From: Daejeonella sp.
GTDB lineage: Bacteria; Bacteroidota; Bacteroidia; Sphingobacteriales; Sphingobacteriaceae
Assembly (NCBI RefSeq): GCF_030695525.1
Contig: NZ_JAUYSS010000046.1
Span: 1 to 64,000 of the forward strand
Direction of reading: 5' to 3'
Length of the DNA: 64,000 nucleotides
Part shown: positions 3,094 to 54,942 of the stretch, one piece after another
Layout: each line of letters begins with the position of its first letter
Position numbering within the stretch: the first letter of the stretch is position 1
Made by a program: the position numbers and the translations under genes
Notes under the pieces: generated by a model
The model's input: only the letters and a program-made list of their open reading frames with translations
The model's database searches: none
What the model was told of the DNA's origin: nothing

Positions 3094-3153
3094 TACTCAA
3101 TACCCAATACTCAATACCCATTACTCAATACTCAATACCCATTACTCAATACT
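3094..3153. repeat. Tandem repeat of TACTCAATACCCAT-type units
   Basis: Alternating copies of TACTCAATACCC and ATTACTCAA form a short tandem array. The array runs into the stop codon region of the neighbouring lipoprotein gene (stop at 3142-3144), so the 3' end of that gene is set within repeat DNA. Units are too short and unspaced for CRISPR. Confidence 0.65.
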
Positions 3154-31231: not shown

Positions 31232-32455
31232 TTAATCCTGTAGCCGATATTTGAAACAGCTAATCAGCATGATCAGAATACCACTAAACAGTATAATTGC
31301 GGCAACAAGAAGGAGTTCGTTGATATAAGGTATTCCGGTATAGCTCAAAGCCCCTACGCCCTGAATCATCAGCAGCAGCTCATTGATAATTACTCCGGCT
31401 ACAAATATAAATATGCCCGTTATAAATCGATTGTTGATTGGGATCAGCTTAAGGGAAACACTATATCCCAAAAGAAATATGCTTGTTACTCCCAATAGCA
31501 CAAGATGGAGATAACCGATTATAATAGGCCTGAATCCATAAGAAATATGGCTGAGCTCAGGATGTATGGATCCTGTTTGCAGGATTAATTTAATTGTAAA
31601 GGCTAAACCCGACAAGATTAGCAGGATTTTACCGTAATGTGTAATTTTAGGGCTGATTTCTGTCCTGAACTTAACGCAAATCTTCATTAGAATTACCCAT
31701 GCAACTAGTTGTGCAATAACCGCAACAATGAGCAAAATATAAATATTGCTTATAAATTTCATCCAAAGGATTGAAAGAAAATAGACGGGTATGCAGGCAA
31801 AGCAAAAAAGCTGGAATACCCTGTATAGTTTCTTTTGTTCACCTGTAATGATCTCCAGTCTGTCGCTGAGCAGGCCCAGGCATGCAAAGAGGAACCAACC
31901 ATTGTATTGAAAATGCAGAAAAAAGTAAATTGAACTCAGGTACCAGTCTTGATTACTCATTTTGTTTACCATCATATAGGCCAGATTAAACGCTCCGAAT
32001 GATGAAATGACGCCAAAGATCAAAGCCGCCCTGAACCACAGGATACTTGTGCTTTTCGTCTTTATACGATTAAGATCCTGCCAGAAATAGATTGCAAAGG
32101 CGTATAAAGCAAAAATATTAAGTGTTGAAAAACTTATGGAATACAAACCATACCCCTGTATGATGAATGTAATCATCATACCATAGGAACTGATCAGATT
32201 AGCTAATAATAGCCAGCTATACTGCTTATTGATTTCTTTTCCCAATGTTGTGCCAAGGTAAAATATCATCAGAATCATCAGCGTTTGGGTGATCCAACCT
32301 GAAAATGCGAAATGTGAATGACTATGAAGTAAATGTTTCTGATCGAGAAAGGGAAGTGAATAGGCAATTTTGTAACGTAGAATTAAACCCAGGGCTGCAA
32401 CAAATAGCAGATTAAGAATTGATATGCTGAGCCATCCCGAAATAAATCTATTCAT
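31232..32455 (-). CDS. Heme-copper-oxidase-like polytopic membrane protein, function unknown
   Basis: The 407-residue protein has about eleven or twelve hydrophobic helices. Histidine-containing segments resemble cytochrome oxidase subunit I: HLLHSHSHFAFSGWITQ at the second helix, HFQYNGWFLFACLGLL mid-protein, and ELSHISYGFRPIIIGYLHLVLLG near the end. HxHxHF...GW echoes the HVHVGALGW heme-ligand motif of the CcoN in this same window. The chain lacks a full CcoN-like length (about 480), and a complete copper-site histidine set could not be confirmed. It is preceded by the Crp/Fnr gene (28-base gap), beside the nos cluster, so a role in low-oxygen or nitrogen-oxide metabolism is inferred. Confidence 0.6.
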   Translation of the reverse strand: MNRFISGWLSISILNLLFVAALGLILRYKIAYSLPFLDQKHLLHSHSHFAFSGWITQTLMILMIFYLGTTLGKEINKQYSWLLLANLISSYGMMITFIIQGYGLYSISFSTLNIFALYAFAIYFWQDLNRIKTKSTSILWFRAALIFGVISSFGAFNLAYMMVNKMSNQDWYLSSIYFFLHFQYNGWFLFACLGLLSDRLEIITGEQKKLYRVFQLFCFACIPVYFLSILWMKFISNIYILLIVAVIAQLVAWVILMKICVKFRTEISPKITHYGKILLILSGLAFTIKLILQTGSIHPELSHISYGFRPIIIGYLHLVLLGVTSIFLLGYSVSLKLIPINNRFITGIFIFVAGVIINELLLMIQGVGALSYTGIPYINELLLVAAIILFSGILIMLISCFKYRLQD

Positions 32456-32483
32456 GTTTAAAACAAAAATAGCCCGGAATTAT

Positions 32484-33128
32484 TTATACCTCTATGACTT
32501 CAATCATATCCTTGCAATACACCTTCCCTTTATTGATAACCAGTTCTCCCTTTTCATGCATGATGCGCATGGTTCGGATGACGGTTTCTACTCTCATACC
32601 GGTCATGAAAGCGATCTGTTGCCTGGTTAATTTTAATTGATTACATTCTTTACAGAAATTCTTGTTTTCTGCTTTTAAATGATTAATCAGATTAATTATT
32701 CTTGTTTCAGGGTTATGACAGGCAAATGATTGAATTACAGAATACCGGAATCTCAATCTTTTGGTTAATAATCTGGTAAAGTCAAAAAGTAAACTTGTGT
32801 TTTCTTTAAGCAGGTTAATAAATGTTGGTTTATAAAGCCTGATCAGAATACAGTCAGTTTCCGCAATCGCTGATGCAGCATAGGGTCCATCATCAAATAG
32901 TGGAAACTCGCCAAAGGATTCGCCCGGTTCAATAATGCTGTGAATACATTCCCTGCCCTCAGCATCCATATTTATCCATCTCACATTTCCACTTATTAAT
33001 TGAAAATAGTAGGTGCAAACCTGCCCTTCGTGGAAGATAGTTTCGCCTGAACTTATTTTTTTATAAGTAGCACCCCAAGCCAGTAATAAGTTAATATCAA
33101 TCATTTGTTTTGATGTTATGAGCGACAA
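32484..33128 (-). CDS. Crp/Fnr family regulator adjacent to nos cluster
   Basis: The 214-residue protein has an N-terminal cyclic-nucleotide-like domain (about 20-120, with GESFGEFPLFDDGPYAASA) and a C-terminal HTH (LTRQQIAFMTGMRVETVIRTMRIM). The recognition helix keeps Glu and Arg of the Fnr VETISR set, but the Ser is Ile (VETVIR). This fits recognition of a TGA core with an altered outer base. No Fnr-type N-terminal four-cysteine cluster is present, so if it senses O2 or NO it is not by that route; a Dnr-like heme is possible but unproven. It is transcribed divergently from the nos cytochrome gene across a palindrome-containing region and leads the oxidase-like gene. Confidence 0.82.
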   Translation of the reverse strand: MSLITSKQMIDINLLLAWGATYKKISSGETIFHEGQVCTYYFQLISGNVRWINMDAEGRECIHSIIEPGESFGEFPLFDDGPYAASAIAETDCILIRLYKPTFINLLKENTSLLFDFTRLLTKRLRFRYSVIQSFACHNPETRIINLINHLKAENKNFCKECNQLKLTRQQIAFMTGMRVETVIRTMRIMHEKGELVINKGKVYCKDMIEVIEV

Positions 33129-33180: not shown

Positions 33181-33240
33181 ATGATATTTATCATTTATGA
33201 TTGAACGCATAAGAAGATCCTCCACTCTTAGGTAAAATTG
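33181..33240 (+). promoter_or_regulatory. nos promoter region with two Fnr-like boxes
   Basis: Box A is ATGATATTTATCAT at 33181-33194 (perfect half-sites ATGAT/ATCAT, 4-base spacer). Box B is ATGATTGAACGCAT at 33197-33210 (left half-site good, right half degenerate). A -7-like element TAAAATTG lies at 33233-33240. Box B is centred 29.5 bases before the first T of that element, the same distance as at ldhA and the fasciclin gene. The region also serves as the upstream region of the divergent Crp/Fnr gene, so autoregulation is possible. Confidence 0.6.
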
Positions 33241-33277
33241 TACAAGCAAATTATTCTTAAAAATTAAATTCTGAAAT

Positions 33278-33763
33278 ATGAAAAAACTTCTTTCACTAAG
33301 CATTATTACTTTGGTTATTGTTGCTGCAGCTTCTTGCGGTGGTAGCGGTGATTCGAAGAAAACTACTGAGGTGGGCACAGAATCTACAGCCGCATCAGAT
33401 GGGGATAACCCTTCTTATGATCCACACAGAGGTGAAGGTAAATTTACCAACGTAGAACTTTCCCCGACCTTAGATGTCGCAAAAGCGGAGCTAGGAAACC
33501 AGGTTTCTCAGGTTAAGTGCAACAGTTGCCATAAAATGACGGATGAGAGGCTGGTTGGACCGGGCTGGGCGGGAGTAACAACACGCCGCAAGCCGGAATG
33601 GATTATGAATTTCATTACCAATACGGATGTCATGATAGATAAAGATCCTGAGGTACAAGCGCAGCTTGAACTCTGTCTGGTTCGAATGCCTAATCAGAAT
33701 CTTTCAGATGATGATGCAAGAAATCTGCTTGAATACATGCGGCAGAATGATGGGGTAAAATAG
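33278..33763 (+). CDS. Monoheme cytochrome c lipoprotein preceding nosZ
   Basis: The 161-residue lipoprotein has its lipobox Cys at residue 20 (VAAASC), then a low-complexity linker. A single class I heme site follows, CNSCHK (Cys81, Cys84, His85), with a probable axial Met137 in VRMP. It is anchored in the periplasm and is well placed to donate electrons to NosZ, which is encoded 135 bases downstream. Analogous small cytochromes occur in clade II nos clusters; the donor role is inferred. It is expressed from a promoter with Fnr-like boxes (33181-33240). Confidence 0.85.
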   Translation: MKKLLSLSIITLVIVAAASCGGSGDSKKTTEVGTESTAASDGDNPSYDPHRGEGKFTNVELSPTLDVAKAELGNQVSQVKCNSCHKMTDERLVGPGWAGVTTRRKPEWIMNFITNTDVMIDKDPEVQAQLELCLVRMPNQNLSDDDARNLLEYMRQNDGVK

Positions 33764-33898
33764 GCTCAAATCAGGCTTTAAATTTCTAAAAAGAGATTAA
33801 TGGCATTCATTTCAATGCTTAACAGGGATGCTTTGCCCTAATTATTTCAAGATAAGAGGATTACACTAAAAATTATTAATTACCAAATCATTAAAAAA

Positions 33899-35908
33899 AT
33901 GAAGATAAATTCCAGATATGTACAGGGGATGGCTGCCCTTGCATTATTAGCAAGCATGAATGCTTGTAAGCCTAAAGATGCGGGCTCCGTTGTAAGCGGG
34001 GATGCTGCCTCAAAAGTGTATGTTGCCCCCGGGAAATATGATGAATATTACAATTTCGTATCAGGGGGTTTTAGCGGTCAGCTTTCCGTTTATGGACTTC
34101 CCAGCGGTAGATTACTCCGGGTAATACCTGTTTTTTCAGTAGATCCGGAGAAAGGCTGGGGCTATTCAGAAGAAACAAAGCCAATGTTAAATACCTCTCA
34201 TGGCAATGTTCCATGGGATGATCTTCACCACGTATCCATGTCTCAGACCAATGGTGAGATAGATGGTCGCTGGGTATTTGCGAACGGAAATAACACGCCG
34301 CGTGTTGCCAGAATTGATTTGAAAACATTTCGTACAGCAGAGATTCTGGAACTTCCAAACAGCGGAGGTAACCACTCTTCACCTTTTATTACAGAGAATT
34401 CAGAATATATTGTTGCAGGTACCAGATTTAGTGTTCCACCGGATGATAAAAATGGAGATGTTCCCATCAATACTTATAAAGAAAATTTTAAAGGTACCAT
34501 CAGCTTTATTAGTGTAGATAAGGAGCATGGAAACATGGATGTTGCTTTCCAATTGCAGGGTCCGGGGGTTAATTTTGACCTGAGTCATGCCGGAAAAGGA
34601 AAATCCAATGGCTGGTTTTTCTTTAGTACTTATAATACTGAGCAGGCTAATACCTTATTGGAAGTGAATGCATCCAAACGTGATAAGGATTTTATTATGG
34701 CAGTGAACTGGAAGTTGGCTGAACAATTAATCAAAGATGGTAAAGGACGCAAGCAGGCTGTAAAATATGCCAGTAACCGTTTTGATGAAAGCACTCATAC
34801 TGCAACTTCAACGATCAAGAATCAGGTAACCGTTCTGGATATGAAAGATCATCCCGGTTTGGTTTATATGATTCCATGTCCTAAATCCCCGCATGGTTGT
34901 GACGTTGATCCAACCGGTGAATATATCGTTGGTAGCGGTAAACTCGCAGCATTAATTCCTGTATTTAGTTTTGATAAAATTCAGAAAGCTATTGCGGATA
35001 AGGCTTTTGATGGCGAGTATGATGGTATTCCAGTCATTAAGTACGAAGCTGCTTTATATGGGGAAGTTAAAAAGCCAGGGCTAGGGCCTTTGCACACAGA
35101 GTTTGACGATAAAGGGAATGCGTATACTTCCATGTTCGTTTCAAGTGAAGTTGTAAAATGGAACGTAAAGGATCTTAAAGTTTTAGACAGGGTTCCAACT
35201 TACTATTCTGTGGGTCACCTGATGATCCCGGGAGGAGACTCTAGAAAGCCAACTGGAAAATACCTTGTAGCGTATAATAAAATTACCAAAGACCGTTATT
35301 TGCCAACCGGGCCTGAGCTATCTCAGAGTGCTCAGTTGTATGATATCAGCGGTGATAAAATGCAATTATTATTAGATTTCCCAACCATTGGTGAGCCACA
35401 CTATGCTCAGGCAGTTGCGGCTGATGTGATCAAAAATAATTCAGTTAAATTCTTTAAGATCGAAGAAAATAAACACCCTTATGTTGCTAAAGGTGAGAAA
35501 GAGGCAAAAGTATGGCGTGAAGGCAATAAAGTGCATATTAACATGACATTGATGCGCTCACACCTTACCCCTGATAATATTGAAGGTGTTCGGGTAGGAG
35601 ATGAAGTTTACTTCCATACCACTAACCTCGAACAAGATTGGGATGTTCCACATGGTTTTGCAATAAAAGGGGCTTTAAATGGCGAACTTTTAGTTATGCC
35701 GGGTGAAACCACAACATTGAAGTGGATTCCATTAAAAGCCGGTATGTATCCTATGTATTGTACCGACTTCTGTAGCGCATTACACCAGGAAATGTCAGGA
35801 TATGTACGGGTTTCTCCTGCAGGAAGTAATGTGCCGATAAGTTTTAGTACCGGTACTAATATCCCTGAAAAGGATAAGCCAGCAGGGCAGGGTACTGCTA
35901 AAAAATAA
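33899..35908 (+). CDS. nosZ: Nitrous oxide reductase, clade II (Sec/lipoprotein type)
   Basis: The 669-residue enzyme reduces N2O to N2 in the periplasm. The N-terminal propeller carries CuZ ligands (DLHHVSMSQTNGEIDGRW, His110 and His111; HGCDVDPTGEY; GPLHTEFDDKGNAYTS). The C-terminal cupredoxin domain binds CuA via CTDFCSALHQEM (Cys621, Cys625, His629, Met632) plus an upstream His in VPHGFAI. The leader (MKINSRYVQGMAALALLASMNAC) has no twin-arginine motif and ends in a Cys at residue 23, so this is a Sec-dependent, probably lipid-anchored form diagnostic of clade II. A terminator-like hairpin follows at 35919-35966, before the accessory genes. Confidence 0.97.
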   Translation: MKINSRYVQGMAALALLASMNACKPKDAGSVVSGDAASKVYVAPGKYDEYYNFVSGGFSGQLSVYGLPSGRLLRVIPVFSVDPEKGWGYSEETKPMLNTSHGNVPWDDLHHVSMSQTNGEIDGRWVFANGNNTPRVARIDLKTFRTAEILELPNSGGNHSSPFITENSEYIVAGTRFSVPPDDKNGDVPINTYKENFKGTISFISVDKEHGNMDVAFQLQGPGVNFDLSHAGKGKSNGWFFFSTYNTEQANTLLEVNASKRDKDFIMAVNWKLAEQLIKDGKGRKQAVKYASNRFDESTHTATSTIKNQVTVLDMKDHPGLVYMIPCPKSPHGCDVDPTGEYIVGSGKLAALIPVFSFDKIQKAIADKAFDGEYDGIPVIKYEAALYGEVKKPGLGPLHTEFDDKGNAYTSMFVSSEVVKWNVKDLKVLDRVPTYYSVGHLMIPGGDSRKPTGKYLVAYNKITKDRYLPTGPELSQSAQLYDISGDKMQLLLDFPTIGEPHYAQAVAADVIKNNSVKFFKIEENKHPYVAKGEKEAKVWREGNKVHINMTLMRSHLTPDNIEGVRVGDEVYFHTTNLEQDWDVPHGFAIKGALNGELLVMPGETTTLKWIPLKAGMYPMYCTDFCSALHQEMSGYVRVSPAGSNVPISFSTGTNIPEKDKPAGQGTAKK

Positions 35909-35918
35909 TTTCATCCAG

Positions 35919-35966
35919 GAGAGGTATAAAATATGCTTACAGCAATTTTATATCTCTCTTTTTTTA
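35919..35966 (+). terminator. Hairpin with T-run between nosZ and nosL (candidate attenuator)
   Basis: GAGAGGTATAAAAT (35919-35932) pairs with ATTTTATATCTCTC (35945-35958) over 14 bp with one G-U pair, followed by eight T residues. It starts 10 bases after the nosZ stop and ends only 10 bases before the nosL start. Confidence 0.8.
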
Positions 35967-35976
35967 ACAATTTATT

Positions 35977-36999
35977 ATGAATAATAATAAAATTGCCAAA
36001 ACAAGCAGTATTGCGTTAATTGTTTGTGGTCTTTCTTTAGTTCTGGTACTCTTTACTCCAATCTGGAGAATCGAACTGGACGCCCCTCAATATCCAGAAG
36101 GATTAAGTCTATTAATCCATGCAAATAAACTAGCCGGGAATGTGGAAATCATAAACGGATTGAATCATTACATTGGAATGAAGACCCTTCATGCAGATGA
36201 TTTTGTTGAATTTAAGGTGCTTCCGGGCATCATATTGTTTTTTGCTGCTTTTTTTGTTCTTGCCGGACTGCTTGCAAGAAGGAAGCTTATTAAAGTCCTG
36301 CTAGGATTATTTGTTCTCTTTGGAGTATTGGCTATGGTTGATTTCTGGAGATGGGAATACGACTACGGGCACAATTTGGATCCCAATGCAGCAATCATAG
36401 TGCCGGGTATGGCTTATCAGCCACCTTTGATTGGATTTAAACAGTTACTAAATTTCGGAGCCTATTCTATTCCTGATACCGGTGGATGGATCTTTATAGG
36501 TGCTGGTATTGTCCTATTGGGAGTGGTTATTTTAGAGTGGAAAAGAAAAAACAAAAGCCTGCATCCTAAAAGTGCTTTAAATTTGGTGTTTGTCGGACTA
36601 CTTTCTCTGTTTTTCAGTTCATGCAGCACTGAACCTGATCCAATTCGAATTGGGAAGGATAATTGTGAGTTTTGTAAAATGACCATTAGTGATTCCAGAT
36701 TTGGAGCTCAAATCGTAACAAACAAGGGGAAAAAGCATAAGTTCGATGACCAGCATTGCCTTTCACAGTTTTTATATGAGGATAAAGTTAAAGATGAGGA
36801 TATTGCAGGTGTTTATTTTGTCGACTTTAATGCACCGCATGATCTTATAAATGTGGAAAATGCATTCTTTCTGCAAAGTCCTGCCTTAAAAAGTCCGATG
36901 AATGGAAATATTGCAGCTTTCAGTCATAATGATAGTCTGGAAAATGCTGTTCAAACTTATTACGGCAATAAAATTACCTGGAAGGAGATATTGAAGTGA
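35977..36999 (+). CDS. nosL: Membrane module fused to NosL copper chaperone
   Basis: The 340-residue protein has two parts. The N-terminal part (about 1-190) contains some four membrane helices (11-30, 82-100, 105-122, 170-187) with a periplasmic loop. The C-terminal part (about 200-340) is a NosL domain, with a lipobox-like FFSSC (Cys216) after a hydrophobic stretch and then CEFCKM (Cys230, Cys233, Met235). NosL delivers Cu(I) to the NosZ apoenzyme; CxxCxM is the metal site in this family. Here the lipoprotein signal is internal, suggesting the chaperone arose from fusion with an upstream membrane protein, possibly a NosB-like one. The stop overlaps the nosD GTG by 4 bases. Confidence 0.88.
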   Translation: MNNNKIAKTSSIALIVCGLSLVLVLFTPIWRIELDAPQYPEGLSLLIHANKLAGNVEIINGLNHYIGMKTLHADDFVEFKVLPGIILFFAAFFVLAGLLARRKLIKVLLGLFVLFGVLAMVDFWRWEYDYGHNLDPNAAIIVPGMAYQPPLIGFKQLLNFGAYSIPDTGGWIFIGAGIVLLGVVILEWKRKNKSLHPKSALNLVFVGLLSLFFSSCSTEPDPIRIGKDNCEFCKMTISDSRFGAQIVTNKGKKHKFDDQHCLSQFLYEDKVKDEDIAGVYFVDFNAPHDLINVENAFFLQSPALKSPMNGNIAAFSHNDSLENAVQTYYGNKITWKEILK

Positions 37000-38225
37000 G
37001 ATTGGTTCCCTTCATATTTTTAACCCTTTTGTATTGCAGTGCTACAGCAGCTAATATATATGTTGGAGCAAAGCGTAGCCATAAGACGGTAAGCTCAGCC
37101 ATATTATCTGCCCGGGACGGAGATACAATTTTCGTTGATGCCGGCCATTACAGAGAAAAGAATCTGATTATTGATAAAAGCATTATCCTGAAAGGGATTG
37201 ATTTCCCGGTACTTGATGGTGAAAAAAAATATGAGATTATTTCAATAACAGCAAATGGAGCTGTTGTGGACGGATTTAAATTAATACACAGTGGTGTTTC
37301 AAGCCTTGAAGATTTAAGTGGAATTAAGGTTTATGACAGCAGGGATGTTGTTATCAGGAATAATATTCTTGAAGATACTTTTTTTGGTATATATATCCAG
37401 AATGGTATAAACTGCAGTATAGAAAACAACCAACTTATTGCAGTAGGTTTTGAAGAGCAGCAGAGTGGAAATGGAATTCATTGCTGGAAAGGGGATAGCC
37501 TGAAAGTAATCGGTAATCAAATATCCGGTCACCGGGATGGAATATACTTTGAGTTTGTAAAAAATTCTGTCATCTGGCGAAATGTATCAAAAAACAATCT
37601 TCGGTATGGATTGCATTTTATGTTCTCCAATGATGATATGTATGTGAACAATGTGTTCAGAAACAACGGTTCAGGAGTATCGGTCATGTACTCTAACCGG
37701 ATCAAGATGTTCAGTAATTATTTTGAAGAGAACTGGGGTGATGCGGCTCATGGGATTTTGCTCAAAGAAATTTCTGATGGTTTTATGGAAGGTAATTATT
37801 TCACCAGGAATACCAGTGGAATTTATATGGAAGGAGCCAACAGGATCTATATGAAACGGAATGTTTTTGAGAACAATGGATGGGCATTAAAAATTCAGGC
37901 AAGTTGTATGGATGTAGTGCTGGAACTCAATAATTTCATTGGAAATACTTTTGATGTGGGTACCAATGGCTCATTGGTTCTCAATAAGTTCAAAAACAAT
38001 TACTGGGATAAATATGAAGGATATGATCTTGATAAGGATAAGATTGGAGATATTCCTTACCGTCCGGTAAGTATGTATTCAATGATCGTTGAAAAATATC
38101 CTCCGGCAATGATCCTTTTCAGAAGTTTTATAACAAGTCTGCTCGATAAAACAGAGAAGCTAATACCAAGTCTCACTCCTGAAAACCTCAAAGATACCGC
38201 TCCAATGATGAAGAGAGCCTTTTAA
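36996..38225 (+). CDS. nosD: Nitrous oxide reductase maturation protein NosD
   Basis: The 409-residue periplasmic beta-helix protein has CASH repeats, for example GIKVYDSRDVVIRNNILED, GIYIQNGINCSIENNQ, GVSVMYSNRIKMFSNYF and GIYMEGANRIYMKRNVF. NosD works with the NosFY ABC transporter to supply sulfur and assemble the CuZ [4Cu:2S] centre. The signal peptide spans about residues 1-19. It starts with GTG at 36996, overlapping the nosL stop in GTGA. An unusually good Shine-Dalgarno for this phylum (AAGGAGA, about 36983-36989) sits 7 bases upstream and supports this start. Confidence 0.95.
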   Translation: MRLVPFIFLTLLYCSATAANIYVGAKRSHKTVSSAILSARDGDTIFVDAGHYREKNLIIDKSIILKGIDFPVLDGEKKYEIISITANGAVVDGFKLIHSGVSSLEDLSGIKVYDSRDVVIRNNILEDTFFGIYIQNGINCSIENNQLIAVGFEEQQSGNGIHCWKGDSLKVIGNQISGHRDGIYFEFVKNSVIWRNVSKNNLRYGLHFMFSNDDMYVNNVFRNNGSGVSVMYSNRIKMFSNYFEENWGDAAHGILLKEISDGFMEGNYFTRNTSGIYMEGANRIYMKRNVFENNGWALKIQASCMDVVLELNNFIGNTFDVGTNGSLVLNKFKNNYWDKYEGYDLDKDKIGDIPYRPVSMYSMIVEKYPPAMILFRSFITSLLDKTEKLIPSLTPENLKDTAPMMKRAF

Positions 38226-38275
38226 GAGGGCTTATTCCCTGATAAATAGCTTGGACTGAGATCAAATAAAAAATT

Positions 38276-38986
38276 ATGATTCAATTAAAAAATATCAGTA
38301 AGCACTTTGGGAAACTAAGAGCACTGGACAGTGTAACAACAATCTGTGAGAAATCAGAATGTATTGCCCTGATTGGTCCCAACGGTTGCGGAAAGACTAC
38401 GCTGATTAAAACTATTCTGGGGATGGTAGTTCCGGATAGTGGTGCTATCACATTCCAGGGTAATAACATTATTAACCATTGGCAGTACAGGGATCAGATT
38501 GGCTATATGCCGCAAATGGGCCGCTATCCTGATAATATGACTATCGGACAGGTGCTGGGGATGATGAAAGACATCCGTGGCAAATCCGAAGGTCTGGATG
38601 AGGACCTGATAAAGGCTTTTTCTGTTCAGAATTTATTGAACAAGCGTATGGGGACTTTGTCTGGCGGTACAATACAGAAAGTAAGTGCAGCGCTCGCATT
38701 TTTGTTCAATCCTTCCGTACTTATTCTTGATGAACCAACTGCAGGGCTTGATCCGGTAGCATCCGAACTTTTTAAAGAAAAGATCCTGGCTGAAAGGGAT
38801 AAAGGAAAACTAGTACTGATCACTTCGCATATCCTGAGTGATTTGGATGATCTGGTCACCCGGATCATATACATGCAGGAAGGAAAGCTAATTTTCCATA
38901 AGAGTATCGAAGAATTAAGACAGGATACAGGGGAAGAAAGATTGGTAAAATCAATCGCACAAGTAATGATCAGCAATTATGAATAA
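38276..38986 (+). CDS. nosF: NosF ABC transporter ATP-binding protein
   Basis: The 236-residue ATPase has Walker A GPNGCGKTT (residues 34-42), signature LSGGTIQKVSAA, Walker B VLILDEPTAGLDP and the H-loop ITSHIL. It powers NosY and pairs with NosD for CuZ maturation. Its 3' end overlaps nosY by 8 bases, implying translational coupling. The start at 38276 follows nosD by 50 bases with no visible terminator. Confidence 0.95.
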   Translation: MIQLKNISKHFGKLRALDSVTTICEKSECIALIGPNGCGKTTLIKTILGMVVPDSGAITFQGNNIINHWQYRDQIGYMPQMGRYPDNMTIGQVLGMMKDIRGKSEGLDEDLIKAFSVQNLLNKRMGTLSGGTIQKVSAALAFLFNPSVLILDEPTAGLDPVASELFKEKILAERDKGKLVLITSHILSDLDDLVTRIIYMQEGKLIFHKSIEELRQDTGEERLVKSIAQVMISNYE

Positions 38987-39746
38987 GATTATAAAATATG
39001 TAATTACAGATATTCTGCGCAATAAAATTGTGCTTATCTATACCGGTTTTTTACTTGCTGCATCATTAAGTGTATTCAGCCTGGAAGATAACAGCAGTAA
39101 AGGTCTGTTAAGTTTATTGAATATAATTCTGATTATTGTTCCATTGGTTAGCATCATATTTTCGACCATTTACATGTACAATTCCGCAGAGTTCATAGAA
39201 CTCCTGGTTAGTCAGCCTTTGAAAAGAAACGCAATCTGGCTCAGTTTGTTTACCGGACTGGCCTCTTCACTCTCCATAGCATTTTTAATAGGTGCAGGTA
39301 TTCCGGTCCTGATTTATCAGGCCAACTTAGTCGGACTCACCATGATTTTAACCGGGGTGTTGCTCAGTGTCATTTTTGCGGCTATTGCATTTCTTGCTAC
39401 AGTAAAAACACGGGACAAGGCTAAGGGAATAGGGGCTGCTATCATGCTGTGGTTGTACTTTTCACTCTTGTTCGACGGATTGGTTTTATTTATCTTATTT
39501 CAATTTGCGGACTATCCGATGGAAAATGCAATGATAGCTTTAAGCGCATTAAATCCAATCGATTTAAGCCGTATTCTTATTTTGCTCCAATTGGATGTTT
39601 CGGCGATGATGGGTTATACAGGTGCAGTGTTCAAAGACTTTTTCGGAGCAAGTAATGGCCTGATATTTTCTTTTTTTGTGCTGCTTTCCTGGATTGTAAT
39701 TCCAGTTTGGTATTCTACCTTAAAGTTTAATTCAAAAGATCTGTAA
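38979..39746 (+). CDS. nosY: NosY ABC transporter permease
   Basis: The 255-residue protein has six predicted membrane helices (first at about 15-33, last at about 232-248) and the ABC-2-type EFIELLVSQPLKR coupling region between helices 2 and 3. It forms the membrane part of the NosFY complex with NosD. It overlaps nosF by 8 bases and is followed after a single base by the hemerythrin gene. Confidence 0.93.
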   Translation: MNKIIKYVITDILRNKIVLIYTGFLLAASLSVFSLEDNSSKGLLSLLNIILIIVPLVSIIFSTIYMYNSAEFIELLVSQPLKRNAIWLSLFTGLASSLSIAFLIGAGIPVLIYQANLVGLTMILTGVLLSVIFAAIAFLATVKTRDKAKGIGAAIMLWLYFSLLFDGLVLFILFQFADYPMENAMIALSALNPIDLSRILILLQLDVSAMMGYTGAVFKDFFGASNGLIFSFFVLLSWIVIPVWYSTLKFNSKDL

Positions 39747-39747
39747 T

Positions 39748-40188
39748 ATGAAAAGACATGAAGCACTTATCCCCCTATCAAGAGACCATCACGGCACTCT
39801 GATACTTGCCAGGTTGTTACGTTCAGATGCTCCTCCTTACAAAGGGCTTCCGCTTGATTCAATAGGGAAGGCAGAATATGCGATGAAACACTACCGGGAA
39901 GAACTGCTGGAACATTTTGAACAGGAAGAGAAAATGATACCCATGTTAAAGGGGATAAATGTTACGTTGGATAATTTACTTGCCTCTATGAAAGCAGAGC
40001 ATCAGGAGTTACATTCCCTGTTTAATTCCATAAATATAAATCAGGAACTTTCTTCTCAGCTGGATAGGCTTGGACGGACAATCGAAAGCCATGTGCGTAA
40101 GGAAGATCGGGAGATATTTCCGCTGATTCAGGAATGCTGTACAGAGGAAGTATTAAATAAGCTTGCAGATATTTTTACAGAAAAATAA
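39748..40188 (+). CDS. Hemerythrin domain protein
   Basis: The 146-residue four-helix protein has diiron ligands visible as SRDHHGTL (His13/His14), LEHFEQEEKMIP (His/Glu), MKAEHQELH and SHVRKEDREIFP. Hemerythrin-like proteins bind O2 or NO or store iron. It begins one base after the nosY stop and ends one base before the hemoglobin start, so it is a bona fide member of the nos operon. A role in removing O2 or NO to protect the NosZ assembly is inferred from context. Cytoplasmic. Confidence 0.85.
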   Translation: MKRHEALIPLSRDHHGTLILARLLRSDAPPYKGLPLDSIGKAEYAMKHYREELLEHFEQEEKMIPMLKGINVTLDNLLASMKAEHQELHSLFNSININQELSSQLDRLGRTIESHVRKEDREIFPLIQECCTEEVLNKLADIFTEK

Positions 40189-40189
40189 G

Positions 40190-40639
40190 TTGAAAAGGGA
40201 TATTGAAAATAGATCTGACATTGAACTTATGGTTGATGCTTTCTACAAAAAAGTATTAGCAGATAAACAACTTGGGTTTATTTTTCAGGATGTTGCTAAG
40301 GTTAATTGGTTAACACATATTCCACTCTTATATGATTTCTGGGAAAATGTAATCCTGTTTACAGGATCTTATGAAGGTAATCCGGTACATTTGCACAAAC
40401 ACTTACACGCTATTGAACCACTTAGTAAAACTCATTTTGATCGGTGGAATAAGCTTTTCGTTTTAACTGTAGATCAATTGTTTGAAGGTTCAAAGGCTGA
40501 ACTCGCTAAGGAGAGGGCTATTAATATTTCAGGTATTATAAGAGATAAGGTTTTGGAATATCAGAAAACAACCAAAGATATTAAAGCCGGATTGCCCGGA
40601 AATAATATTAAAAAGAACCGAAAGCGGTCACAGGCTTGA
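40190..40639 (+). CDS. Group III truncated hemoglobin
   Basis: An upstream in-frame ATG at 40163 would overlap the hemerythrin gene. The TTG at 40190, one base after the hemerythrin stop, gives the usual family start (KRDIENRSDIELMVDAFY) and 149 residues. Group III features are visible: FYKKVLADKQLGFIF helices A-B, the WLTHIPLLYDFWENVIL block, and the proximal His candidate in LSKTHFDRWNKLF. Such globins are linked to NO or peroxide handling in microaerobic bacteria. Last gene of the nos operon. A long Lys/Arg-rich tail (NNIKKNRKRSQA) extends beyond the globin fold. Confidence 0.85.
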   Translation: MKRDIENRSDIELMVDAFYKKVLADKQLGFIFQDVAKVNWLTHIPLLYDFWENVILFTGSYEGNPVHLHKHLHAIEPLSKTHFDRWNKLFVLTVDQLFEGSKAELAKERAINISGIIRDKVLEYQKTTKDIKAGLPGNNIKKNRKRSQA

Positions 40640-40644
40640 ATTAA

Positions 40645-40850
40645 TTAACGTGAACTCGAAATACTATTTTAAAAACCACATAGAAACATAGCATTTTATA
40701 GCTTCTACCTAAATTTTAGACAAAGATAGCCTTGAAGCTTCGCTTCAATCTATATGATTTACAATCTATGTTTCCTTTAAAGCATATTAAAGTCAATCTA
40801 TGTGGTTAAATATTAATCTTTAGATTGTTTAATATCGAACTCACGTAAAT
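40645..40850. repeat. Large nested inverted repeat (AACCACATAGA arms)
   Basis: Perfect arms AACCACATAGA (40674-40684) and TCTATGTGGTT (40797-40807) lie inside weaker outer arms ACGTGAACTCGA/TCGAACTCACGT (about 40648-40660 and 40835-40846, 10 of 12). A central hairpin TTGAAGC/GCTTCAA is at 40732-40748. It is a typical intergenic repeat of this order and holds no gene. Together with the terminator at 40854-40885 it fills the gap between the nos operon and the fasciclin gene. Confidence 0.75.
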
Positions 40851-40853
40851 TAA

Positions 40854-40885
40854 GAAAGGGGATTACTTTTAATTAATCCCCTTTC
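40854..40885 (-). terminator. Terminator of fasciclin gene
   Basis: GAAAGGGGATTA (40854-40865) and TAATCCCCTTTC (40874-40885) are perfect 12-bp arms. They lie about 30 bases past the minus-strand stop and may also stop transcripts from the nos side. Confidence 0.85.
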
Positions 40886-40914
40886 ATTTAAAAAAACTCT
40901 TTCTTCGGTTTATT

Positions 40915-41478
40915 TTAATTAGCAGCAGGTGGTAATAATACAGTATCAATAATATGAATAATGCCATTTGATGCCGGTACAGATGCAACAATAATTGCAG
41001 TTTCGTTGATCATCACTTTCCCATCAGAAATACTTATTTTGATATCATTTCCGTTCACCTGGCCAATTATCTGTCCTTCGGTTAAATTCTCTGCTTTAAA
41101 TACACCCAGCGAAACATGGTACTGGAGAATATTAGTCAGGTCGTCAATACTTTCCGGTTTTAAAAGATTGTCGACCGTTCCTGCAGGTAATTTATCAAAA
41201 GCTGCGTTTGTAGGGGCAAATACGGTAAATGGCCCTGCATTACTCAATGCATCTACCAGTTTAGCTGCCTGTATAGCCGCTACAAGGGTAGTGTGGTCTT
41301 TACTTCCAATTGCAACCTGCACAACATTTTTTTGCGACAAGTCATCCTGAACACCTGACTGTCCCACAGCCTGGCTTTCATCACTGGTTTGTGTACCGGC
41401 ACCTTGCTCGGTTCCGCTATTGCAGCTAATCAACACGCTAATGCCAACCATAGTTGTAATTAATAAGATCTTTCTCAT
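40915..41478 (-). CDS. Fasciclin domain lipoprotein
   Basis: The 187-residue lipoprotein (lipobox VLISC, Cys19) has one FAS1 domain. It shows H1 (GPFTVFAPTNAAFDKLPAGTV), the YH-like motif (ILQYHVSLGVFKAENL) and a C-terminal NGIIHIIDTVLLPP. FAS1 domains mediate adhesion or matrix binding; some bind heme-like or lipid ligands. A perfect Fnr-like palindrome centred about 42 bases before the predicted start of transcription suggests oxygen-linked control. Monocistronic, with a terminator at 40854-40885. Confidence 0.9.
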   Translation of the reverse strand: MRKILLITTMVGISVLISCNSGTEQGAGTQTSDESQAVGQSGVQDDLSQKNVVQVAIGSKDHTTLVAAIQAAKLVDALSNAGPFTVFAPTNAAFDKLPAGTVDNLLKPESIDDLTNILQYHVSLGVFKAENLTEGQIIGQVNGNDIKISISDGKVMINETAIIVASVPASNGIIHIIDTVLLPPAAN

Positions 41479-41503
41479 GATTTTTTATTTAGTTTTCTTA
41501 CAT

Positions 41504-41547
41504 CCAATTTATTTATTATTATTCCTTAATACTATGACTTTGGTCAT
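41504..41547 (-). promoter_or_regulatory. Fnr-like box and -7 element of fasciclin gene
   Basis: ATGACTTTGGTCAT (41534-41547) is a perfect interrupted palindrome (ATGAC/GTCAT). On the minus strand, TAAATTGG at 41511-41504 resembles TAnnTTTG. The box centre (41540.5) is 29.5 bases before its first T, giving a class II activator geometry and a leader of about 20 bases to the ATG at 41478. Confidence 0.65.
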
Positions 41548-41690
41548 ATTTAAATAAGTTTTTAATCATATTTTTTGATTGTTAAATATCTGAAATTCAA
41601 TATTTTATGTAATTATTTTTTGATAGAAAAGATTTTAAAGGCTTTGTTTTTTTGAATAATTAAACCGAATAGAATTTTTTAGGATTCCAT

Positions 41691-41717
41691 AAAAAAACCG
41701 GCCCTGTATAGAGCCGG
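41691..41717 (-). terminator. Terminator of the 595-residue unknown gene
   Basis: On the minus strand, CCGGCTCT pairs with AGGGCCGG (one mismatch), followed by seven T residues (complement of 41691-41697). It lies 16 bases beyond the stop at 41734. Confidence 0.8.
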
Positions 41718-41733
41718 CTGATTGTTCGGTCGC

Positions 41734-43521
41734 TTAGACCTTCTGCTCAACAACAGGATTTAAATGCTGTAATTTCTCTTCAATTTCCAGGAGTTCATTC
41801 ATCATCTTCTTCCTGTAGATCTCGGTTTGGTCAGTAATTTTGGGGATCAGTTGTTTGTAGTATTCGATTCCGATTTCTAACTGCTCTTTAAATTTTATGA
41901 AATACTTTGCTTTTTTGTCGTTCATTTCCTGAATCTGCTTGCTGATATCTTTTTTGAGGTATTCCACATAAAGATTGAGCTCATTGACAAAGAGATTAGG
42001 ACGATCAGAGTCATTCAGTAAATTTAGTTTACCATAGATATGGCTCACCATTTCATCCAATGAGAATTTACCGCTAAAATAAGCAATATTGGGGCCCGGA
42101 CAAATGACTGTAGCTTGACTCTCTTTGGGTTTAAGAATGTTGTTTTTCAAGTATGCAGGTGCTGCCAGTCCTTCACAGAGGCATAGCTTCTCAGTTATCG
42201 ATTCAAATTTTGTCTGAAATTCATCAGGCTGCAATCCTTCTGCCTCCAGTTGCTTGATTTTCAGATTCTGATACTCTCTGGACGCGGTGCAGATTGGCTG
42301 TTCAGTAAATTCAGTATTCGACGATAGGAATTTTTTAACACATGGACTTCCGGGCCTTCCTTTGGCAATGCGTTCAAGACGCTGTTTCTCGGCAGTGCTT
42401 TTTCTGAAATTGTTAAAGGGTATTCCAAGTGGTGATGAGCCACTGATATAAAAATCATTATGTGTAGCCGTGGAAAGTAGTTCAAGTGTTTCAGCATCCA
42501 CATTTGTTGCTTCAGGTACCAGTAAAAAGGGGCTTCCCCAGCCGGTTGCATCAAGCTGATAATGATTCATAAGGAAATCGTTTTCATCTGATGTCCCAAT
42601 CCCACCCTGAACACTGATCTTTAATTTGGGAACACTTGAAAGCTGAATGCCTTTTTCTTCGATCGCCCTACTATATATCTGGTATAATTCATCAATCATT
42701 TCCTGCTTTCTGGTTTTGAATTCCTCTAAAATAGGACCTAAAAGATAACCCTCAGTTGCGAAGGCATGTCCACCGCAGTTCAAACCTGATTCAACACGAA
42801 ATTCTGAAACCCAAAGACCTTTTTTAGCAAGAAATTTTGCCTGTATCAATGCAGACCTGAAGTCACTTACTTTTAGGATGATACTTTTCCTGAAATTGCT
42901 GAACTGATCAGGTAAGAATTCAGAAAAATTTTCCAGGTAACTGTAAAGACGTGGATTCATTCCTGCTGAAAGGACTACAGGGGTATTTAATTCACTCTCT
43001 GCAAATCCCTTTAGGGCAGATAATGCATCCGAAATCTGCTCACCGCTGGTATTTGGGTTCATGCGGTCGACCTTTGCCATAATGTTGACCTGAATCTCGC
43101 CCTTCTCAATTTCATTGCGCAACTCATTCTGCAAGGCAGTACGCTTTACTGAGTCCTGCTCATTGAGCATATGCTGATACTTTATTTTTAGCGGAGAACT
43201 TTCCGGAAGGAGGTTGAAATATCTTGTTAGGTCAGTGCCCTCTGCAAATGCTTCCTGACGCAGTGTTTCGAACTGTTTGTCAACGATCTTTTTAACAAGA
43301 TTAAGGTAAGCTCTGATTCTTTTACTTCTGGAATCAGTTTCCTTAGGATCGATAGGAACAAATTTCTCATTGATTTTTTCGGTATATAATTGACGCATTC
43401 GTTCAATTAAAATATCATCTACAATCGACACCACCGAGCTGATGCCATAGCGTGCTACTTTTATTGGTGTGTCTACTGAATAGGCAAGGCCAAGTACAGG
43501 AATATGAAATGTATGACTCAT
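41734..43521 (-). CDS. Uncharacterised 595-residue protein with TIM-barrel-like motifs and Cys cluster
   Basis: This protein is not recognised as a named family. It has no signal or membrane segment, so it is cytoplasmic. The middle section contains short glycine motifs reminiscent of flavin- or phosphate-binding TIM barrels: GLNCGGHAF (247-254), VQGGIGT (304-310) and ATGWGSPFLLVPEA (325-338). A cysteine-rich segment follows, with Cys394, Cys411, Cys447, Cys449 (CLC) and Cys474, which could bind an iron-sulfur cluster. The last 90 residues are Lys/Glu-rich and probably coiled coil. It stands alone, with a strong terminator and an Fnr-like box upstream at 43584-43597. A redox role under low oxygen is a guess from these signs. 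Confidence 0.75.
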   Translation of the reverse strand: MSHTFHIPVLGLAYSVDTPIKVARYGISSVVSIVDDILIERMRQLYTEKINEKFVPIDPKETDSRSKRIRAYLNLVKKIVDKQFETLRQEAFAEGTDLTRYFNLLPESSPLKIKYQHMLNEQDSVKRTALQNELRNEIEKGEIQVNIMAKVDRMNPNTSGEQISDALSALKGFAESELNTPVVLSAGMNPRLYSYLENFSEFLPDQFSNFRKSIILKVSDFRSALIQAKFLAKKGLWVSEFRVESGLNCGGHAFATEGYLLGPILEEFKTRKQEMIDELYQIYSRAIEEKGIQLSSVPKLKISVQGGIGTSDENDFLMNHYQLDATGWGSPFLLVPEATNVDAETLELLSTATHNDFYISGSSPLGIPFNNFRKSTAEKQRLERIAKGRPGSPCVKKFLSSNTEFTEQPICTASREYQNLKIKQLEAEGLQPDEFQTKFESITEKLCLCEGLAAPAYLKNNILKPKESQATVICPGPNIAYFSGKFSLDEMVSHIYGKLNLLNDSDRPNLFVNELNLYVEYLKKDISKQIQEMNDKKAKYFIKFKEQLEIGIEYYKQLIPKITDQTEIYRKKMMNELLEIEEKLQHLNPVVEQKV

Positions 43522-43553
43522 GAAAAGAATTAAAAAGGGTTAATCCACGAGTA

Positions 43554-43597
43554 CAAATAAGGGTATTATAGAGTTCTTAAAATATGATAGCGGTCAC
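43554..43597 (-). promoter_or_regulatory. Fnr-like box upstream of the 595-residue unknown gene
   Basis: The box ATGATAGCGGTCAC (43584-43597) has half-sites ATGAT and GTCAC. On the minus strand the octamer CTTATTTG (43561-43554) has the TTTG of the -7 consensus, although TA is replaced by CT. The box centre is 29.5 bases before the octamer, as at the other promoters. Confidence 0.45.
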
Positions 43598-47407: not shown

Positions 47408-48595
47408 ATGACTAATAAAGGCGCATTGTTACATGCTATTATTGAAAATGCAATTGACGGAATCATCACAATAGATGAGCGTGGATTAATTGAATCAATA
47501 AATCCTTCTGCCTGTGCTTTGTTTGGCTATACAATAGAGGAAGTGACCGGCAGGAATGTTTCTATGCTGATGCCACAGCCTGATAGGGGTCAGCATGATG
47601 AATATCTTGCCCGATATCAGCGGACGGGTACCCCTCACATCATTGGTACTGGGCGCGACGTAAAAGGCCTGAAGAAAGATGGTACAATGTTTCCCTTCCG
47701 GCTTGCGGTAAGTGAGGTAAAGTATTCAGGAAGGACAATCTATACCGGATTTATCCATGACCTGACCAGGGAAAAAGAAGCAGAGGCTCAGATATTGCAT
47801 TATGCTTCACAACTTGAAAAATTAGTCGAAGATCGTACAAATTCACTTCAGAAATCGGTTACGGAACTTCAGGTAGCAAAAGAAACAGTAAGTCAATCTC
47901 TCGAAAAGGAAAAAGAGCTCAATCAATTGAAAAGCCGGTTTGTGTCGATGGCTTCTCATGAATTCCGAACGCCACTTAGTTCCATACAATTATCTGCTTC
48001 ATTGATTGAAAAGTATAAACTGCAGGATGATGGGACCAATATATCAAAACATGTCAGTAAGATTAAAAATTCTGTAGGTAATTTAACGACCATTCTGGAT
48101 GATTTTCTCTCTCTCGAGCGACTGGAGGCAGGTAAAATTGAAACAGCTTTTTCGAAATTCGATATTGTCAAGCTTTCTGAAGAGATTACTGAGGAGATGC
48201 AAATGATGGCTAAAAAAGATCAGAATATCATTTATCAGCATACCGGACTCCATAGCACAGTGTTGCTGGATCAGAATCTGCTCCGGAACTGTATCATCAA
48301 TTTAATTTCAAATGCCATCAAATATTCAGGTGAAAATACCTTCATTGAGTTCAATACTGAACTTTCGGATACAGAATGTATTGTTACCGTAAGGGATAAT
48401 GGAATTGGCATACCTGAAGCAGATCATAAGCATTTATTTGAGCCATTTTTCAGGGCTAACAATACCGGCAATATCCCGGGAACAGGTCTTGGGCTGAATA
48501 TTATTATGCGTTATGTTAATTTGATGGGAGGAAAGGTTAATTTTACCAGTCTCCCGAAACAGAAAACTATTTTTAACCTGAATTTCCCACAGTAA
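47408..48595 (+). CDS. FixL-like heme-PAS sensor histidine kinase
   Basis: The 395-residue soluble kinase has no membrane helices. The N-terminal PAS (about 5-120) closely follows FixL: NPSACALFGYTIEEVTGRNV, then LMPQPDRGQHDEYLARY, and PHIIGTGRDVKGLKKDG. His63 corresponds to the heme-ligand His of FixL (BjFixL His200), followed 14 residues later by His77 (His214) and 20 residues later by Arg83 (Arg220, the distal O2-contact residue), with identical spacing. A coiled linker (125-175) follows, then HisKA (MASHEFRTPLSS, phospho-His184) and HATPase (NLISNAIKYS, DNGIGIPE, GTGLGLNI). It should bind heme and sense O2. The partner regulator starts 6 bases downstream. Confidence 0.9.
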   Translation: MTNKGALLHAIIENAIDGIITIDERGLIESINPSACALFGYTIEEVTGRNVSMLMPQPDRGQHDEYLARYQRTGTPHIIGTGRDVKGLKKDGTMFPFRLAVSEVKYSGRTIYTGFIHDLTREKEAEAQILHYASQLEKLVEDRTNSLQKSVTELQVAKETVSQSLEKEKELNQLKSRFVSMASHEFRTPLSSIQLSASLIEKYKLQDDGTNISKHVSKIKNSVGNLTTILDDFLSLERLEAGKIETAFSKFDIVKLSEEITEEMQMMAKKDQNIIYQHTGLHSTVLLDQNLLRNCIINLISNAIKYSGENTFIEFNTELSDTECIVTVRDNGIGIPEADHKHLFEPFFRANNTGNIPGTGLGLNIIMRYVNLMGGKVNFTSLPKQKTIFNLNFPQ

Positions 48596-48601
48596 AATTC
48601 T

Positions 48602-49666
48602 ATGAAGAAGAAGAAGATTCTATTAATTGAAGACAACGCGGATATCAGAGATAGTTCTGTTGAAATTCTGGAACTTGCCGGTTATGAAGTTTTGGAAGCT
48701 GAAAATGGTAAAATAGGTGTTGAACTGGCGCAGCAACATATCCCCGACATGATACTTTGTGATATAATGATGCCTGAACTGGATGGTTATGGCGTTTTAT
48801 ATCTCTTATCAAAAAACATGGAAACCTCAAATATCCCCTTTATTTTCCTCACCGCAAAAGCCGAAAGGGCTGATATGAGGAAAGGTATGGACATGGGTGC
48901 CGACGATTATCTGACCAAGCCTTTTGATGATATGGAATTGCTAAATACCATTGAGTCCCGCTTTCAGAAAAAGGAAAAGATGGAATCTTTTTACAGCAAA
49001 TCGTTTGAGAGTCTTCAACTCCTGACCAATCAGAATCAGGGTCTTGATGAATTGAGAAAAATTATTGCCGACCGTAAGGTTAAACAGGTTAGAAAAAAGC
49101 AGATTATTTATTATGAGAGTGATACAATTACAGGCATATATTTGATTCTGAGCGGGAGAGTAAAAGCCGTTAAATTAAGCGAAGACGGAAGGGAATTGGT
49201 TACGGGAATGTATGGACCAGATGAATATCTGGGAATTCAGGCAATGCTTTCTGGAGATCATTATAATGAAACTACTGAAGCTGTCGATGATACTACGATC
49301 TGTCTTCTCCCAAAAGATACTGTAAAGCAGCTACTCGATACCTATACAGATATTGGTCAGAAATTTATTAAGGTGCTTTCAAGCAACCTGATTGAGAAGG
49401 AGGAACAATTACTTCAGTTGGCCTATCACTCAGTGAGGAAACGAATGGCTGAGATCCTGATCCGCCTGGCAAAGCAACAAAATGCCCATGAAAGTTCTGA
49501 AGCACAAATCCGAATCTCAAGAGAAGACCTTGCCTCGATGGCAGGCATGGCTACAGAAACAGTAAGCAGAACCCTGAGCGATTTTAAAGATGAAGGAATC
49601 ATTGAAAAGAAAGGTAGCGTGATTGATATCATCGATTTTTCCAAGCTCCATAAAATGAAAAACTGA
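48602..49666 (+). CDS. Receiver - cNMP-like - Crp HTH fusion response regulator
   Basis: The 354-residue protein has three parts. The receiver domain (1-125) has acidic pocket EDN (Glu10, Asp11), phospho-acceptor Asp54 (LCDIMMPELDG), Thr84 and Lys106 (LTKPF). A Crp-type effector domain (about 150-270) includes YESDTITGIYLILSGRVKAVK. A C-terminal HTH (about 310-350) contains ISREDLASMAGMATETVSRTLSDF. The recognition helix TETVSR keeps the Glu, Ser and Arg that in Fnr (VETISR) contact TTGAT half-sites. It is therefore predicted to be phosphorylated by the FixL-like kinase upstream and to bind Fnr-like boxes. Two such boxes overlap and follow its own stop codon, ahead of ldhA. Confidence 0.9.
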   Translation: MKKKKILLIEDNADIRDSSVEILELAGYEVLEAENGKIGVELAQQHIPDMILCDIMMPELDGYGVLYLLSKNMETSNIPFIFLTAKAERADMRKGMDMGADDYLTKPFDDMELLNTIESRFQKKEKMESFYSKSFESLQLLTNQNQGLDELRKIIADRKVKQVRKKQIIYYESDTITGIYLILSGRVKAVKLSEDGRELVTGMYGPDEYLGIQAMLSGDHYNETTEAVDDTTICLLPKDTVKQLLDTYTDIGQKFIKVLSSNLIEKEEQLLQLAYHSVRKRMAEILIRLAKQQNAHESSEAQIRISREDLASMAGMATETVSRTLSDFKDEGIIEKKGSVIDIIDFSKLHKMKN

Positions 49667-49728
49667 TAAAGATCATTTTTCTTTATGACCTCACTCATTA
49701 CGCAAACTTATTCCTAAAAGTACTTTTG
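49663..49728 (+). promoter_or_regulatory. ldhA-hemN promoter: two Fnr-like boxes and perfect -7 element
   Basis: Box 1 is CTGATAAAGATCAT (49663-49676), overlapping the stop codon of the regulator gene. Box 2 is ATGACCTCACTCAT (49685-49698). TACTTTTG (49721-49728) is an exact match to TAnnTTTG. Box 2 is centred 29.5 bases before the -7 element, so about -42 from the predicted start of transcription, the class II Crp/Fnr activator position. Confidence 0.7.
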
Positions 49729-52139: not shown

Positions 52140-52265
52140 TTCCGGGTCAAGCCCGGAATGACAGAATCCTACTGTCATCACAGACTTGATTCCTTGTCAT
52201 TGCTGCGAGCCTGATGCGTTGTCATTGCGGGCTTGCCCCGTCGTTATTGCGGACCTGATCCGCAA
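52140..52265. repeat. GC-rich repeat block with GTCATTGCGG units
   Basis: The hairpin TTCCGGG/CCCGGAA (52140-52158) lies immediately after the hemN stop. Three related units follow, beginning at about 52197 (GTCATTGCTGCGAG), 52221 (GTCATTGCGGGC) and 52243 (GTTATTGCGG). The last contains a perfect hairpin TTGCGGA/TCCGCAA (52247-52265). The block forms the 3' end of the convergent SafE-like gene. Confidence 0.75.
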
Positions 52266-52953: not shown

Positions 52954-52995
52954 TTAAGCCAAATTCTCTAAATTAATAGGGATACTGATAGAATA

Positions 52996-54928: not shown

Positions 54929-54942
54929 ATGACTTAGATCAT
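54929..54942. promoter_or_regulatory. Fnr-like box between ccoG and PEP-synthase-like gene
   Basis: ATGACTTAGATCAT has half-sites ATGAC and ATCAT with the 4-base spacer. On the minus side the octamer at the expected distance reads AATTTTTA (weak); on the plus side no -7 element fits. It could serve ccoG, an expected low-oxygen gene, or the divergent gene. Confidence 0.4.

Follow-up and report, generated by a model that had tools for sequence, protein, structure and literature searches.

A fixed box-to-promoter spacing in Daejeonella sp. and its relatives suggests that CRP/FNR-family activators dock at the class II position

Among the directly activated FNR promoters of Escherichia coli with known starts, 19 of 23 have the FNR site at -41.5 within 4 bases (PMC3688515), the class II position of CRP/FNR activators. 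Oxygen control through a kinase has been described in rhizobia, where FixL works via FixJ or FxkR on fixK genes (PMC4999443). In Bradyrhizobium FixL (BjFixL), His200 binds heme, Arg220 contacts oxygen and Arg206 is reported as important for the inhibition of the kinase by oxygen (PMC10765370). A further point of reference comes from Flavobacterium psychrophilum, in which mapped transcription starts place the core promoter element TAnnTTTG at -12 to -5 (PMC9723704). Here, we describe a 64,000-nucleotide stretch of contig NZ_JAUYSS010000046.1 (assembly GCF_030695525.1; genome 4.2 Mb) from Daejeonella sp., Sphingobacteriaceae, referred to below as the window, in which palindromic boxes near ATGAY-N4-RTCAT stand 22 bases ahead of an octamer resembling TAnnTTTG. 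This gap, called N22, places the box centre 29.5 bases before the first T of the octamer.

The initial annotation of the window had reported four such boxes, each centred 29.5 bases before its octamer, and our analysis confirmed their positions and distances, all at N22. Boxes were scored out of 10 against ATGAY-N4-RTCAT, and octamers out of 6 for the fixed bases of TAnnTTTG. Upstream of ldhA, on the plus strand, the box ATGACCTCACTCAT (49685-49698; 9/10) is followed by TACTTTTG (49721-49728; 6/6), and ahead of the nos genes, also on the plus strand, ATGATTGAACGCAT (33197-33210; 8/10) is followed by TAAAATTG (33233-33240; 5/6). On the minus strand, the fasciclin promoter combines ATGACCAAAGTCAT (41534-41547; 10/10) with TAAATTGG (41504-41511; 5/6), and that of a gene for a 595-residue protein combines GTGACCGCTATCAT (43584-43597; 9/10) with CTTATTTG (43554-43561; 4/6). 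A fifth site, a better match than these four, had been overlooked: ahead of a gene for a 407-residue protein, the box ATGATTGAAGTCAT (32494-32507, minus strand; 10/10), lying at the 3' end of the neighbouring regulator gene P0002, stands at N22 from TATTTTTG (32464-32471, minus strand; 6/6). The genome has no other exact N22 match.

Within the window alone, the excess at N22 is modest and only suggestive. Five pairs scoring at least 14/16 lie at this gap, whereas the 55 other gaps average 1.25 such pairs (largest 3) and 40 runs of Markov-1 random sequence average 0.4 (largest 4); the nos and 595-residue sites score below this threshold. Boxes with at most one mismatch number 29 in the window against 13.4 expected. 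A scan of the complete genome, of the kind that the initial annotation had in mind, gave a partial answer. Perfect boxes number 34, five of them within the window, compared with 22 matches to the reversed pattern; the exact combination of box and octamer, searched at gaps 8-38, occurs twice, at N22 and at N23; and at N22 with up to two mismatches there are 37 matches against 18 for the reversed pattern, so that many of the 37 are chance matches.

The family-wide comparison is decisive, and it shows that the fixed spacing is not chance. Across 61 family genomes, the present one included, the exact box, a gap of 8-38 bases (31 gaps allowed) and TAnnTTTG gave 134 matches, with 45 at N22, 15 at N21, 12 at N23 and at most 6 at every other gap (binomial p of 4.5e-33 for N22 against a uniform spread; the genomes are related and hence not independent in this and the other family-wide statistics). 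The reversed pattern gave 44 matches in total. Thus, the expectation under which the annotated spacing would have failed, namely that N22 is no more frequent than other gaps, does not hold in the relatives, and the genome itself contributes only the two exact matches mentioned above. In a sample of 118 genomes of the phylum, for which gaps were taken among the 150 matches listed, N22 accounted for 57 of 111 listed matches in other families of the class and for 1 of 30 in other classes. The gap histogram of the family also has a minor second rise at gaps 10 and 11, with 6 matches each against about 2 elsewhere; boxes so placed would overlie the core promoter and are possibly repressor sites or chance matches.

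If the octamer occupies the positions mapped in F. psychrophilum, its first T lies at -12 and a box centred 29.5 bases earlier lies at -41.5, the class II position. The fixed distance to the core promoter is as expected of class II activators, the centre predicted in this way from the octamer would fit them too, and the spacing very probably marks the docking of CRP/FNR-family activators at that position. The N22 promoters (42 distinct sequences) have no enrichment of TTG in the -33 area, and a T-tract directly follows the box. Three of the 44 N22 sites in relatives were flagged within an open reading frame (ORF) of at least 150 codons. A downstream ORF could be identified for 39 of the 44, the remaining 5 having none under the rule used, and 20 representatives of the genes downstream of N22 and N21 sites were searched against Pfam. 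N22 sites are followed by, among others, the copper ATPase ccoI (8), a fused ccoNO (4) and fasciclin (2), as well as DcuA/B, pyruvate formate-lyase, a globin, ferrochelatase and a nos-type cytochrome; PdxH, a short-chain dehydrogenase/reductase enzyme and an AraC regulator are without a clear link to oxygen.

Two candidate regulators are encoded in the window. One, RR-CRP (P0001; 48602-49666, plus strand), joins a receiver to a cyclic-nucleotide-binding (cNMP) domain and a Crp-type helix-turn-helix, and the other, P0002 (32484-33128, minus strand), is a single-module CRP/FNR regulator beside the nos genes. Exact N22 sites occurred in none of the 14 family genomes lacking RR-CRP, an FNR type and P0002, and in 23 of the 47 having any of them (for the 12 FNR-type genomes, the four cysteines were read in 8 and the other 4 were assigned by homology). 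In eight genomes of two genera (L137, L138, L139, L159, L160, L163, L166 and L188), a four-cysteine FNR gene lies directly before a box and ccoI.

The initial annotation took the common geometry to indicate a real regulon. The shared geometry and the low-oxygen genes bear this out in part; a single regulon does not follow from the spacing. One CRP/FNR protein acting at all boxes, with half-site differences merely tuning affinity, would explain why all sites have a common TGAY/TCA core and spacing and why five perfect boxes are gathered in the window, but the outer bases of the boxes make this unlikely. When A, G or T was accepted outside TGAY, N22 matches rose to 110 (9 in the control), and their outer bases were A/G in both halves in 74, T in both in 23 and mixed in just 13 against 43 expected (chi-square 53.7; the boxes come from related, non-independent genomes). 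This family-wide segregation argues that two specificities use one spacing. The idea of a single regulator is further opposed by the nos variant of the box, which tracks P0002 as described below, and by the recognition helices, ETVSR in RR-CRP and VETVIR in P0002. Judged by these comparisons, the spacing most likely marks the docking site of a protein family and is not the signature of one regulon, and at least two regulators of that family probably share the docking position.

The ldhA promoter lies beside RR-CRP. The gene for a kinase with a FixL-like heme-PAS domain (47408-48595, plus strand) is followed by RR-CRP, by ldhA, which encodes a D-lactate-dehydrogenase-like protein (49746-50750, plus strand), and, 24 bases after ldhA, by hemN for oxygen-independent coproporphyrinogen III oxidase (50775-52139, plus strand). 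A distal box CTGATAAAGATCAT (49663-49676, plus strand) precedes the proximal ldhA box by 22 bases, so that the predicted centres are -63.5 and -41.5. Tandem boxes 22 bases apart, located after or overlapping the RR-CRP stop codon and followed by 22 bases and TAnnTTTG, were found at 23 of 31 RR-CRP loci, this one included. The distal position holds 24 core palindromes at the 23 loci, 21 of them with TAnnTTTG at gap 44. While the distal box is palindromic, the left half of the proximal box retains TGAY at 22 of 23 loci and its right half begins with C at 17 of 23; because this form is common in relatives, the mismatch in the ldhA box (CTCAT) is a conserved feature.

The PAS domain of the kinase matches that of Bradyrhizobium FixL with an E-value of 2.3e-31. 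Its His63 and Arg83, kept in all 30 aligned sequences, would correspond to BjFixL His200 and Arg220, with residue numbers placed by our alignment, so that the kinase has a FixL-type PAS domain with counterparts of both the heme-binding histidine and the oxygen-contacting arginine. A search of the genome at an E-value of 1e-12 found no four-cysteine FNR, which leaves the kinase as the leading candidate for sensing oxygen here. RR-CRP has cysteines only at 53 and 234, and the first 37 residues of P0002 contain none. RR-CRP, together with the FixL-like kinase, probably controls ldhA.

At the other end of the set, the nos promoter precedes a cytochrome c gene (33278-33763, plus strand), the first of the nos genes, and nosZ of the Sec-dependent type (33899-35908, plus strand). 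P0002, on the opposite strand, shares 92% and 94% identity with its counterparts in a Daejeonella and a Sphingobacteriales metagenome-assembled genome, which makes a Daejeonella-like member of Sphingobacteriaceae the most likely origin of the window. The variant RTGAY-N3-ACGCAT was found at 31 of 39 P0002 loci (named records), with 33 occurrences; the gap to TAnnnTTG is 22 bases in 28 of them and 23 bases in 2. In the family sample, 7 of 8 nos-cytochrome loci in genomes with P0002 had the variant box, compared with 0 of 19 in genomes without it (Fisher 9e-6); at two loci from genomes without P0002 (L261 and L262), the nos promoter has a plain palindrome instead, followed by a complete octamer at N22 or N21. 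Since the variant tracks the presence of P0002, this regulator appears to read the ACGCAT half, and the simplest reading is that it activates nos through it; control of nos by P0002 is likely. The initial annotation had regarded the half-sites at the nos and 595-residue genes as degenerate; both sites are supported in relatives, as are the other two, and ACGCAT at nos is a conserved variant.

A perfect palindrome, ATGATATTTATCAT (33181-33194, no strand assigned), precedes the nos box by 16 bases instead of 22 and lies 45.5 bases before the nos octamer. The possibility that the nos box had been mis-chosen was rejected, as the alignment of relatives shows 33197-33210, and not the palindrome at 33181, to be the conserved N22 element. 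The palindrome has a counterpart at the same offset in the same-genus locus L250, and N22-type boxes occur on the P0002 side of the nos region in several Parapedobacter loci. It may serve the promoter of P0002 itself.

The 407-residue gene (31232-32455, minus strand) has its box in the same place and at N22 in several P0002 loci. The product, a membrane protein, has no Pfam or NCBIfam match. Its structural model, with a mean pLDDT of 89.8, is similar to heme-copper oxidase subunit I of the cbb3 and nitric oxide (NO) reductase types (best E-value 1.5e-5, TM-score 0.71), and only some of the usual histidines are present, with His46, His48, His181 and His317 invariant in 22 sequences. The predicted fold is compatible with a divergent respiratory or NO-handling protein, as one possible assignment.

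For the fasciclin-domain protein (40915-41478, minus strand), 10 of 29 fasciclin loci were compared, and the N22 box was found at this locus and in 4 of the 9 relatives scanned. The 595-residue gene (41734-43521, minus strand) has a full-core box within 300 bases upstream at 21 of 30 loci (24 boxes). TTTG follows at N22 in 13 of these 24 boxes, with other gaps at 2 or fewer, and the full TAnnTTTG in just 3; thus, the octamer of this gene is weak in the relatives too, but correctly placed. RR-CRP is found no more than 30 kb away in 18 of the 28 genomes having both genes. Its product, 50-67% identical over 29 aligned sequences, matched no Pfam or NCBIfam family, and its model (pLDDT 88.3) resembles flavin enoyl reductases of the PfaD/FabK type (best E-value 1.2e-7) with a TM-score of just 0.38.

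Among other features, a perfect palindrome ahead of ccoG/fixG (54929-54942, minus strand) has a weak octamer at N22 (4/6). The consecutive ccoG/fixG, FixH and DsbD-like genes at 52222-54812 form the end of a cbb3 oxidase cluster. Beyond the window, on the same contig (G000:C18), N22-type sites at 66661-66734 and 69369-69412 precede a ccoI-like ATPase and another P-type ATPase, and four of the six best hits of the genome lie on this contig. A scan of the window for tandem repeats found nothing relevant to the boxes; short arrays with 7- and 21-base periods occur at 2919-2967 and 3094-3154.

These observations can be accommodated by CRP/FNR activators at the class II position, with at least two paralogs and a FixL-type kinase wired to one of them, a reading to which we assign a probability of about 0.72. 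The box would be an activator binding site at -41.5, from which a dimer can touch both sigma and alpha; such promoters would do without a TTG at -33, and, as every class II activator of the family would dock there, the spacing would be common to all. The FixL-like heme-PAS kinase would control RR-CRP, which would activate ldhA-hemN through its two boxes, centred at -63.5 and -41.5, and would probably also act on the 595-residue gene, and P0002 would activate nos through ATGAY-N3-ACGCAT. Binding of DNA by these proteins, control by oxygen and the actual start sites are thereby predicted from sequence, and the assignment of either paralog to the fasciclin and 407-residue genes is similarly provisional.

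Several observations weigh against this proposal. Of the six best hits in the genome, C64:510 falls within an ORF and C37:56026 lies about 0.4 kb before a MacB/FtsX-like gene. In the group closest to this locus, the distal ldhA box has the stop codon of the upstream gene in its left half, so part of the conservation of that box is coding; in a more distant group, the distal box lies entirely past the stop codon, yet is palindromic. The tandem pattern is missing from 8 of 31 loci (L100, L103, L115, L116, L119, L124, L126 and L169), and directly downstream of RR-CRP no ORF was found at L100, L115, L116 and L124 and an unrelated one at L119. The equivalent of Arg206 is arginine in this kinase but in just 20 of 30 orthologs. 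The nearest fasciclin relative (L350) is without the box, the octamer of the 595-residue gene reaches only 4/6, and 9 of the 30 loci of that gene, including the same-genus L295, have no full-core box within 300 bases upstream. Additionally, the 14 regulator-free genomes include four of small size (1.7-1.8 Mb), and RR-CRP alone is a poor predictor of exact ATGAY sites: among genomes lacking the FNR type, these occur in 12 of 34.

The direction of control is also predicted. The boxes could instead be repressor sites, at which a CRP/FNR protein covering the -35 area would block polymerase in air, and a site centred at -41.5 does extend to that area. A repressor would not depend on a precise distance, whereas the observed peak has a width of one base and one-base shoulders; furthermore, promoters without a -33 TTG look activator-dependent, and the tandem boxes are exactly 22 bases apart. 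We therefore consider repression improbable, more so than a single regulon. Chance combined with selective choice by the initial annotation, as hinted at by the perfect box passed over for a poor one at nos, the 4/6 octamer of the 595-residue gene and the small excess in the window, can practically be dismissed in view of the N22 peak across the family, which rules out chance for the spacing overall, and of the conservation of the very sites that seemed chosen (28 of 33 nos boxes at gap 22 and 13 of 24 boxes of the 595-residue gene with TTTG there).

Activation from the class II position at two or more paralog-specific sets of boxes can be compared with several known systems. With the class II FNR and CRP promoters of E. 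coli, the present sites would share the centre at -41.5 (PMC3688515), as predicted here from the octamer, and they differ in having TAnnTTTG without a -33 TTG as core promoter and a box of RTGAY-N4-RTCAY instead of TTGAT-N4-ATCAA. The [4Fe-4S] FNR system is represented in the two genera of relatives whose four-cysteine FNR gene is immediately followed by a box and ccoI, whereas none was found in this genome at the threshold given above, RR-CRP and P0002 are without an N-terminal cysteine cluster, and the boxes of the window are of the ATGAY, GTGAY or CTGAY type and not TTGAT-N4-ATCAA. HcpR, DNR and NnrR are, like P0002, single-module CRP/FNR regulators beside nitrogen-oxide genes, a likeness of architecture and context; the consensus motifs given for HcpR (PMC1274295) differ from the boxes described here.

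The openly licensed literature, as far as its accessible portions extend, yielded no report of a box with this spacing in Bacteroidota, nor of a FixL-like kinase with a receiver-CRP/FNR fusion in that phylum, though such reports may exist elsewhere. The combination of box, N22 and TAnnTTTG offers a usable promoter grammar with which low-oxygen and N2O-reduction regulons could be predicted across a large bacterial class, and shows more generally how a family of activators may be recognised by a constant spacing even where the boxes differ.

A further parallel to the arrangement is the FixL-FixJ-FixK2 system of Bradyrhizobium, with which it shares a FixL-like heme-PAS kinase, a CRP/FNR output and a nos target. 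The FixK2 box reported at nosR in Bradyrhizobium is TTGATCCAGCGCAA (PMC5582078), and its right half, GCGCAA, resembles the ACGCAT of the nos box here. The two differ in that they belong to different phyla and in that the separate FixJ step is absent, the receiver and the CRP/FNR output being one protein, from which we infer a shortened pathway; such short wiring from FixL to FNR is suggested by the present data and open to direct testing. At even odds, in our estimation, Bacteroidia would have a collapsed version of FixL-FixJ-FixK, in which the kinase phosphorylates a receiver-FNR fusion in one step, replacing the Fe-S FNR in many genera while the -41.5 layout is kept and a nos paralog reads a private ACGCAT half-site.

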